Below are positions 44,483 to 47,700 of a DNA stretch of 64,000 nt, in pieces. Source of the stretch: Laspinema palackyanum D2c (lineage in GTDB: Bacteria; Cyanobacteriota; Cyanobacteriia; Cyanobacteriales; Laspinemataceae); contig NZ_JAMXFD010000002.1 in the NCBI RefSeq assembly GCF_025370875.1, forward strand, positions 488,218-552,217. Direction: 5' to 3'. The first letter of the stretch is position 1, and every line of letters begins with the position of its first letter. Under the pieces are notes generated by a model. That model was not told the DNA's origin and did no database searches. It saw only the letters and a program-made list of their open reading frames with translations. Made by a program: the position numbers and the translations under genes.

Positions 44483-45427
44483 CTAAGCCGCATTTTCCCG
44501 ATACCAGGCGATAGTTTTTTGCAATCCTTCTTTAAACCCAACCTCTGCCGTAAATCCAAACTCTTTTTTAGCCAGTTCCGTATCTAAACAGCGGCGAGGT
44601 TGACCATTAGGTTTCTCCGTATCCCAAACCAATTTACCCTCAAATCCCATCAATTCGCAAATCAGTTCAATTAAATCGCGAATGGTGATTTCATAGCCGG
44701 TTCCCAAATTAACCGGGTCCGATTTATGGTAAGATTGAGTTGCCATCACAATCCCTCGGGCGGCATCGGTGGAGTAGAGAAATTCCCGAGAAGGGGTACC
44801 ATCTCCCCACACCACTAATTCTTTATCTCCCCGTTCTTGGGCTTCATGAACTTTGCGAATTAAGGCGGGGATGACGTGAGAACTGCTGGTGTCGAAGTTA
44901 TCTTCCGGTCCATATAAGTTAACAGGCAGTAAATAAATGCCGTTAAAATTATATTGTTGTCGATAGGATTGCAGTTGGACTAATAAGGCTTTTTTGGCAA
45001 TCCCATAAGGCGCATTGGTTTCTTCTGGATATCCATTCCAAAGGTCATCTTCTTTGAAGGGGACGGGGGTGAATTTGGGATAGGCGCAGATGGTACCGAC
45101 ACAGACAAATTTCTGCACACCGGCTTGATAGGCGGCATGAATGAGTTGCGTCCCCATCATCAAATTATCATAGAAGAGTTCGGCGGGTTTTTCGCGATTT
45201 AAGCCGATTCCACCGACATGGGCGGCGAGGTGAATGATAATATCTTGTTGTTGGACAACCTGCTGACAAACTTCCATGATTCTCAGGTCAGAATCACGCG
45301 ATCGCGGGACGGTGATTTTATCGCGATCGGCCCCATTTTGGGTTAATTGGTCGATGACTTGCCGACCTAAAAATCCGGCCCCTCCGGTGACGAGAATGCG
45401 TTTGTCTTTTAAGTCTAATGATTCCAT
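44483..45427 (-). CDS. fcl: GDP-L-fucose synthase
   Basis: Epimerase/reductase that turns GDP-4-keto-6-deoxymannose into GDP-L-fucose, the step after GMD, encoded upstream. The Rossmann motif [16 protein letters not shown] is at residues 14-29 and the catalytic Tyr-x3-Lys is in [11 protein letters not shown] near 140. [14 protein letters not shown] and the [10 protein letters not shown] segment are family-typical. Length 314 is normal. It lies 212 bp from gmd on the same strand, with a MITE-like element in between, so the two may still be one transcript. Confidence 0.93.
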
Positions 45428-45639: not shown

Positions 45640-47700
45640 TTAGTCCACCATGTGACCACTGTCTTGGCGGATGAAGGCGCGATCGATAATCGGTTGTCCT
45701 GTGGGAGATTCTACCCCGATCGCCTTGAGGTCAGAATCCACCATTAAGGCAACCAATTGTTCAAAGGTAATGGAGGGTTCCCATCCTAATTTTTCCTTCG
45801 CTTTACTGGGGTCGCCAATTAATAAATCAACTTCCGCAGGACGGAGATAGCGGGGGTCGAATTCGACGTAATCTTCCCAATTCAGGTTAACGAAATTAAA
45901 GGCTAAATCCAAAAACTTGCGGATGGTATGGGTTTCATTGGTGGCAACGACATAATCATCCGGTTCTTCTTGTTGCAGCATCAACCACATGGCGCGAACA
46001 TAGTCTTTGGCATAGCCCCAGTCCCGCTTAGAATCCAGGTTACCAAGGAAGAGTTTCTTCTGCTTTCCGGCGACGATGCGGGCGACGGCGCGGGTAATTT
46101 TGCGGGTGACGAAGGTTTCGCCTCGGCGCGGGGAGTTATGGATCCAACCCTGGCCGACTCCAGCATGGAAGGTGCCACTGGTGGTTGCTAAGTCAAATAA
46201 CCATCCTTGATAGTTGATGGGTTCAGCGGTGACAACTTGGGCGCGGTTGGTGCCTTGGGGTGGGGTGGCGTTGATGTGAATTTGATACTGGAACCCGTCG
46301 CCTTGGGATTCGGTGGCAATCCAGGCGGGTTGTTCCAGGGTAGTGACGGACATCCAGTAGAGTCCGGCAGCGAGGAGGGCGGAGGGAGTTTGGACGGTGA
46401 AAGTGTCTCCAGCTAGGGGAGAAACGGCTTTAAATCCGTCTAAAAAGGCTAACCGTTCCCGATCGCCTGCGTTGAGAATCCGCTTGGGAATGCGTTTGTC
46501 TTGGGATTTGCTGTACAGTTCCGATCGCAAGTAGTCACTGTAGGCCGGGTTGCCGGATAACTGGAGACGGGATGCGGCGAGGCGATCGCAATTTCCACCG
46601 GAGACTTTTCGCCAAGAGGCGGCGAGGCGATCGCCTACAGCGGTGTCCGGAATTGTCAAGATGACTTGACTTTGACTATCAATTTCTGCGGCAGCAACGA
46701 GTACCCCAAGCAACCATGCCTCAGTTTCGGTGAGGTCAAGTTGTTCAGGCGATCGCGGCAAGTCAATCAACGCCAAGGAATCCCCGACTTTGACCTCACC
46801 GGCAGGTTTTTCTACTGCCGATTCGCCCTGTTGCACAAATACAACATGATCGCTGGTGGCATGATAAACCGCACCCTCTGCCGCAATCCGATGTACGGTT
46901 TTATTGGGTTGTTCTGTGGCCCCATTCCAGGTGGCCGTCATGCAAGTCACTTGCACCCACCCTTGGGCATCCCAGACTTCCAACCCGTTACCGTCCCTAA
47001 TGTCCGTGGTATATCGATTTTTATGGCCTGGATCCTGGTCATGGGGGACAATTTCCGCAATGGACACCAGGTCAATTAATCCATCCTGACGAATGAACAC
47101 CGGGGTATTGTCAATCACGCATTCATGGTTAAACAGGATGCCATTACAGGCAAATAAATCATAAGATTCGCGATAATTGACCGTTTGCCAATGGGCGTAA
47201 ACCTTGGCGCAGGAATAGGGACTGCGGGGATAAAACGGGGTCGTTTCCTTTTGGGGGACTTCCAAGACCTTGCCAAACATTTCCGAGGAACCCGCTTGAT
47301 AAAAGCGGACTTGGATCCCGGTGCGATGTTGGTAGTCGCGGATCGCTTCTAAGAGGCGCAGGGTTCCCATTGCCACCGTATCCACGGTGTATTCTGGGGA
47401 GTCAAAGCTGACGCGGACATGGGATTGAGCGCCCAGGTTGTAAATTTCAACAGGTTTGACTTCTTCGAGAATTCGACGGAGAGTGACCCCATCGGTTAAG
47501 TCCCCGTAATGGAGAAATAACCGGGCGGCTTCACTATGGGGGTCCACATAAAGATGGTCGATCCGGTCGGTATTAAAGGTGGAAGTCCGGCGGATAATCC
47601 CGTGGACTTCATAGCCTTTTTCTAGTAATAATTCGCTTAAGTAAGAACCGTCTTGGCCGGTGATGCCGGTGATTAATGCCCGCTTACGTTGCTGCGTCAT
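45640..47700 (-). CDS. gmd: GDP-mannose 4,6-dehydratase with in-frame intein
   Basis: Makes GDP-4-keto-6-deoxymannose from GDP-mannose. The 686-residue frame contains a 329-residue insertion (residues 194-522, see separate entry); removing it leaves a 357-residue GMD, the normal size. N-extein: ITGITGQDGSYLSELLLEKG at 10-29, SSEMFG at 138-143, the catalytic Tyr162 and Lys166 in PYSCAKVYAHW, and GILFNHE ending at 193. C-extein: SPRRGETFVTRKITRAVA from 523, then DPRYLRPAEVDLLIGD. The two halves join exactly at the conserved NHE-SPRRG. No stop or frameshift separates them. It works upstream of fcl. Confidence 0.95.
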   Translation of the reverse strand: MTQQRKRALITGITGQDGSYLSELLLEKGYEVHGIIRRTSTFNTDRIDHLYVDPHSEAARLFLHYGDLTDGVTLRRILEEVKPVEIYNLGAQSHVRVSFDSPEYTVDTVAMGTLRLLEAIRDYQHRTGIQVRFYQAGSSEMFGKVLEVPQKETTPFYPRSPYSCAKVYAHWQTVNYRESYDLFACNGILFNHECVIDNTPVFIRQDGLIDLVSIAEIVPHDQDPGHKNRYTTDIRDGNGLEVWDAQGWVQVTCMTATWNGATEQPNKTVHRIAAEGAVYHATSDHVVFVQQGESAVEKPAGEVKVGDSLALIDLPRSPEQLDLTETEAWLLGVLVAAAEIDSQSQVILTIPDTAVGDRLAASWRKVSGGNCDRLAASRLQLSGNPAYSDYLRSELYSKSQDKRIPKRILNAGDRERLAFLDGFKAVSPLAGDTFTVQTPSALLAAGLYWMSVTTLEQPAWIATESQGDGFQYQIHINATPPQGTNRAQVVTAEPINYQGWLFDLATTSGTFHAGVGQGWIHNSPRRGETFVTRKITRAVARIVAGKQKKLFLGNLDSKRDWGYAKDYVRAMWLMLQQEEPDDYVVATNETHTIRKFLDLAFNFVNLNWEDYVEFDPRYLRPAEVDLLIGDPSKAKEKLGWEPSITFEQLVALMVDSDLKAIGVESPTGQPIIDRAFIRQDSGHMVD
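46135..47121 (-). other. Intein inside gmd (329 residues)
   Basis: Class 1-type splicing features at both ends: Cys at the first residue (CVIDNTPVFIRQDGLIDLVS, block A), a TSDH block B near residue 283 of the precursor, a block F-like stretch YQGWLFDLATTSGTFHAG, and a terminal His-Asn (WIHN, block G) followed by Ser as first C-extein residue. All catalytic residues for splicing are present. The middle has degenerate LAGLIDADG-like helices (WLLGVLVAAAEID near 329 and FLDGFKAVSPLAGD near 419) that lack the usual acidic residue, so the endonuclease is probably dead. Confidence 0.93.

Follow-up and report, generated by a model that had tools for sequence, protein, structure and literature searches.

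The gene for GDP-mannose 4,6-dehydratase (Gmd) of Laspinema palackyanum D2c is very probably interrupted by a fixed intein at a late stage of the homing cycle, comparable to the PhoVMA intein, and comparative sequence analysis indicates that its precursor would be spliced to a complete Gmd. The gene, gmd, lies in a stretch of DNA of 64,000 nucleotides that we analysed as a whole and call the window; positions given without a contig name are those of the window. It forms a single uninterrupted reading frame of 686 residues with the following parts and neighbour.

45640–47700, minus strand: Gmd precursor gene, 686 residues, made up of an N-extein of 193, an intein of 329 and a C-extein of 164 residues
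47122–47700, minus strand: Gmd N-extein, with the last residues ILFNHE
46135–47121, minus strand: Gmd intein, Cys1 to Asn329 (CVIDN ... WIHN), 329 residues by translation
46738–47121, minus strand: N-terminal splicing half of the intein, residues 1–128 (approximate boundary), with Cys1, T89-x-x-H92 and the invariant Cys60
46249–46737, minus strand: degenerated LAGLIDADG endonuclease domain, residues 129–291 (approximate boundaries)
46681–46725, minus strand: first LAGLIDADG helix, residues 133–147, TEAWLLGVLVAAAEI, with Ala144 in place of the acid
46402–46455, minus strand: second LAGLIDADG helix, residues 223–240, RLAFLDGFKAVSPLAGDT, with Ser234 in place of the acid
46135–46248, minus strand: C-terminal splicing half, residues 292–329, ending with GQGWIHN
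45640–46134, minus strand: Gmd C-extein, starting with SPRRGETFVTRK, stop codon included
44483–45427, minus strand: GDP-L-fucose synthase-like gene (NF047922), the next gene downstream of gmd, on the same strand

The first-pass annotation of this DNA had placed an intein at 46135–47121, splitting the NHE^SPRRG motif of Gmd. Those coordinates are correct to the base, as translation gives Cys1 at one end and His-Asn followed by Ser at the other, and the identification itself was borne out by the motifs, the insertion site, the relatives and the predicted fold. It had also stated that removal of the insert restores a normal enzyme. The two exteins (residues 1–193 and 523–686) sum to 357 residues, and both profile and alignment evidence agrees that together they would constitute a normal Gmd. 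The precursor scores 541.7 bits with the TIGR01472 gmd profile (cut-off 415), in two stretches of which the better covers residues 6–195, and in alignments with two solved Gmd chains all matches fall before residue 194 or after residue 520. The product of the downstream gene scores 295.4 bits with NF047922, below the cut-off of 500.

The insert of the window harbours the TxxH motif of block B (T89-S-D-H92) and ends with a block F/G sequence, WLFDLATTSGTFHAGVGQGWIHN. A search of Gmd homologues for the same insertion point, which had been proposed as a check, yielded 17 different inteins, all of them inserted at ILFNHE^SPRRG. This set excludes L018–L021, whose gene DNA is identical to that of L026, L027, L029 and L030, L023, identical to L048, L010–L012, taken as duplicates of L022, L023 and L024, and L009, which is the window itself. 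The nucleophile Cys1 is present in all 17 inteins, Cys60 is likewise invariant in all 17, and T89 and H92 of block B are conserved in each of the 12 inteins that were aligned. A C-terminal His-Asn followed by Ser+1 was found in 15 of the 15 rows excised by match coordinates, all with the same junctions. The same junctions were also found in 22 intein rows (17 different) and three empty rows, chosen by a script that seeks the site with a pattern that itself demands the HN-Ser junction. With the same ends in eight of eight Laspinema genomes and in nine other lineages, the sequences indicate that the insert is not a product of chance.

Scores with the Pfam Intein_splicing profile are low. The insert of the window reaches 18.7 bits, below the curated cut-off of 35.8; eight of 12 relatives have a match with an E of at most 1, and every match in a set of 10 Gmd inteins lies below the cut-off. 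Thus, the identification rests on the motifs, the exact site, the relatives and the fold. A profile built from 12 relatives gave weak matches with solved inteins (best E 0.0044). The structure predicted for the intein of the window has a mean pLDDT of 69.3 and a pTM of 0.71, with residues 1–5 and 312–329 under 50. A Foldseek search with this model returned inteins with endonucleases as its top matches, namely TliVMA (7qsu, E 4.4e-16) and PhoVMA (7qst, E 2.1e-13), with PI-PfuI (1dq3, E 4.2e-11) as a further match; the superpositions of the first three are loose (rmsd 7.6–8.4). The predicted structure thus supports the presence of a splicing (Hint) fold and of a LAGLIDADG endonuclease. Altogether, the exact site, Cys1, the TxxH motif, the terminal HN, Ser+1, the relatives and the predicted fold identify the insert as an intein.

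We determined how widely this intein occurs. The insert has matches with an E of at most 0.01 in nine of 386 genomes drawn from the Cyanobacteriota. Seven of these matches are full length, including that in the window's own genome, and the other two are weak and partial (E 0.008 and 0.0096). An uninterrupted ILFNHE-[S/T]-P pattern is present in 205 of the 386 genomes and in none of the seven carriers; some of the sequences that fit this pattern may be Gmd-like paralogues, and gmd is perhaps absent from many of the remaining genomes. Scanning named genomes with six peptide patterns revealed eight Gmd intein loci, in two Laspinema species, two Oscillatoria, Spirulina sp. CS-785/01, an Oscillatoriaceae MAG, Synechocystis salina LEGE 00031 and a MAG called Chloroflexaceae.

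All eight genomes examined in the window's genus code for the intein, each with the full 686-residue span. Inteins 89–96% identical to that of the window come from records called Laspinema or Oscillatoria, and the length is 329 residues in the genus versus 346–365 in the others. In the family of the window, 11 of 14 genomes harbour the intein and three are empty at the same residue (N-extein 91–92% and C-extein 80–81% identical). Within one genus of this family, g145, the intein is present in one genome and absent from two. As the intein-containing L049 and the intein-less L052 share 999 of 1038 extein bases, the gain or loss in g145 is fairly recent.

Two of the inteins, L025 and L015, are found in distant types of Gmd, again at this site. 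L025 comes from the MAG called Chloroflexaceae, and L015, one of the seven full-length carriers, is found on a 3.6 kb contig in an assembly with 9% contamination. They hint at a spread of the Gmd intein beyond cyanobacteria, with the host organism of both unsure.

Other intein-like inserts were observed in genome G000. One (G000:C2:160645–161973; L076, L077) lies in a frame that resembles PurL (phosphoribosylformylglycinamidine synthase) from its translation, and its LAGLIDADG-like motifs are seemingly kept. Two others (G000:C47:2797–4062, L074 and L075; G000:C58:2841–2951, L078) are in frames whose translations resemble DnaB and a ribonucleotide reductase. The DnaE intein at G000:C3:44672–44851 (L079) is apparently contiguous (cis), in a single frame, whereas split DnaE inteins are common in cyanobacteria.

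We then analysed the endonuclease domain. Columns 144 and 234 of the alignment, in the first and second LAGLIDADG helices, were taken as the catalytic acids on the basis of the motif and of the way in which PMC8966425 describes blocks C and E. Column 144 is Glu in eight of the 17 inteins and Ala in nine; column 234 is Asp in eight, Ser in eight and Asn in one. Both acids are retained in L013, L014, L015, L022, L024, L025, L048 and L049. The eight Laspinema inteins all have Ala144 and Ser234 (E to A, D to S), a loss that the first-pass annotation had not mentioned, and have kept their splicing residues. The LAGLIDADG_3 profile matched none of five Laspinema inteins versus five of the five others tried, among which only L025 passed the curated cut-off. 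Judging from these sequence features, the Laspinema endonuclease has most likely lost the ability to cut DNA. An intein of another genus of the family, L050 (G397:C99:79330–81462), has also lost the acids (Ala and Asn). It is placed beside Laspinema in the intein tree (support 92/90), where it forms a long branch, and beside L049 in the extein tree (90/93). The acids of the Laspinema and L050 inteins may have been lost once or twice.

Selective constraint within Laspinema was estimated as the ratio of mean pairwise dN and dS values over the eight genomes. This dN/dS ratio is lowest in the two exteins (0.024 and 0.040), intermediate in the splicing halves (0.092 and 0.075) and highest in the endonuclease part (0.252). 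Bootstrapping of pooled counts gave 0.285 (0.19–0.40) for the endonuclease, 0.121 (0.07–0.18) for the N-terminal half and 0.099 (0.03–0.24) for the C-terminal half. As the intervals of the endonuclease and of the short C-terminal half overlap, the contrast is clear relative to the exteins and barely so relative to the N-terminal half. For the intact inteins L048 and L049, the endonuclease has a dN of 0.046 and a dS of 1.40, i.e. a ratio of about 0.03, some eight times below that of Laspinema; this comparison is of one pair, dS being saturated in most other pairs. The endonuclease dN to L048 is 0.335 for the intact copy assigned to Thermosynechococcus strain CL-1 and 0.432–0.479 for the eight Laspinema inteins (0.432 for the window), and the corresponding values for the N-terminal half are 0.293 for the CL-1 copy and 0.280 for the window. 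Thus, the loss of the acids seems to have been accompanied by relaxed constraint on the endonuclease, although some constraint is still present, the ratio being well below 1.

Within the genus, dS is higher in the splicing halves (0.44 and 0.41) than in the exteins (0.21 and 0.30), with the endonuclease part between the two exteins; vertical inheritance alone does not explain this difference. Nothing in the dS values of the intein points to its having spread recently among the genomes of the genus. Recent transfer between L048 and L049 was also considered; their intein dS of 1.08 is close to their extein dS of 1.10, and thus there is no sign of it, most other pairs being saturated. The extein tree of 29 rows, obtained from one of 32 rows by removing L068 (branch of about 10) and the distant Gmd types L015 and L025, needs four presence/absence changes, two of which are forced by well-supported branches; gains and losses are indistinguishable in it. 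No vehicle of the intein was identified in tblastn searches of phage and plasmid sources or in a scan of viral contigs. The intein gave no plasmid match and weak matches with six phage records (E 0.005–0.008, 23–24% identity), in which the genes concerned are annotated as nrdD, portal protein or hypothetical. Scanning the viral contigs with two peptide patterns derived from a 12-sequence alignment yielded 23 hits, none of them a relative.

We propose the following model. The intein would interrupt Gmd between Glu193 and Ser+1. Attack by Cys1 would form a thioester, followed by transfer to Ser+1, cyclization of Asn329 and ligation of the two halves into the 357-residue Gmd, which makes the precursor of GDP-fucose. 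The inteins at this single site presumably form a family that was moved in the past by homing through the LAGLIDADG endonuclease. In the Laspinema copies, with both catalytic acids lost, vertical inheritance would be the simplest reading. The intein probably persists because its loss requires a precise deletion and because defective splicing would break the enzyme. The residual constraint on the endonuclease would fit a need for it as a scaffold in splicing.

An alternative is that the intein is conditional, i.e. that redox or another signal governs splicing, hence Gmd and surface fucose, and that it has been retained because it is useful. Its presence throughout Laspinema although the endonuclease looks dead and the invariance of Cys1 and Cys60 in the 17 inteins are in favour of this idea, as are data on Synechocystis, in which loss of the fucose synthase that acts downstream was reported to abolish fucose, impair growth and alter the envelope (PMC12285223, PMC3769361). 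It is plausible that fucose supply depends on splicing of the Gmd intein. However, fixation together with a dead endonuclease is what is expected at the last stage of the homing cycle even if the intein brings no benefit, as described in PMC8966425, and a second Gmd-like gene may buffer the cell. We thus regard a conditional intein as improbable; its more specific form, in which the Laspinema intein was kept after the death of its endonuclease as a splicing switch, for instance through Cys1 and Cys60, so that GDP-fucose and the cell surface would track redox or light, is slightly less probable still.

The second gene just mentioned is uninterrupted, and its product is 49 and 47% identical to the two exteins. 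It scores 350.7 bits with TIGR01472, below the cut-off of 415. Such a gene was found in the window's genome and in all 14 genomes examined in the family, and two gmd candidates have been named in Synechocystis (PMC12285223). One might thus suppose that the insert has lost splicing and that the interrupted gene codes for a dead Gmd whose role has been taken over by the second protein. We consider this very unlikely, as the exteins are under strong purifying selection and in frame in all eight Laspinema genomes, and the splicing halves are constrained and have retained their catalytic residues. Least likely of all, with hardly any probability, is a BIL- or hedgehog-like domain that cleaves without joining and leaves two Gmd fragments: the Hint fold is common to inteins and such domains and the Pfam intein score is weak, but the insert lies exactly at a position that is uninterrupted in homologues, each of the 15 excised rows retains Ser+1 and the C-terminal HN, and both flanks belong to one enzyme.

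With the fixed intein as the preferred reading, the gmd site offers several stages of the homing cycle at one position in living relatives, and the host is an enzyme of sugar-nucleotide rather than DNA metabolism. Some relatives have an empty site, others have an intein whose endonuclease looks intact, and in one genus the endonuclease is degenerate and every genome examined has the intein. The site therefore allows one to ask whether splicing still requires an endonuclease domain that is dead, and whether an intein, once fixed, has a regulatory role or is neutral.

The first-pass annotation had been aware of no description of this insertion site. On this point it was preceded by a 2022 report of type II inteins in gmd of Thermosynechococcus, with the insertion placed in the ancestor of Taiwanese and Indian strains (PMC9403480); thus, an intein in gmd was already in print. 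Among the matches listed in open-licence PMC, this is the only report of a gmd intein that we recognised, and others could exist in subscription journals or in intein databases. The copy assigned to strain CL-1 (L014, genome G247) is in the same gene and, as taken from the L014 sequence rather than from that report, at the same residue as the intein of the window, to which it is 49% identical. In contrast to the latter, it has 346 residues and both LAGLIDADG acids (AEG and GDG). The pattern of an empty site is present in G089 and G179, two genomes with the same genus code as that of CL-1. The remark that most inteins reside in replication proteins agrees with a review, which names replication, repair and recombination proteins (PMC5874633).

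The best structural match of the window's intein, TliVMA (7qsu and 7qss, E 4.4e-16), differs from it by an active endonuclease, an accessory domain and an unrelated host protein, at 17% identity (PMC8966425). PhoVMA (7qst, E 2.1e-13) is closer in its state. Its endonuclease has lost the acids of both blocks C and E and is reported as inactive with its fold retained; the same source describes how, in the homing cycle, the endonuclease is lost once the intein is fixed, with no benefit needed, and mentions inteins that require the endonuclease scaffold for splicing (PMC8966425). Like PhoVMA, the intein of the window has lost the catalytic acids of both blocks, but PhoVMA resides in an archaeal V-ATPase, at another site, with 15% identity over the alignment. 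Thus, the gmd intein as such is already known, and what is particular here is a genus in which all eight genomes examined carry a copy with a degenerate endonuclease.
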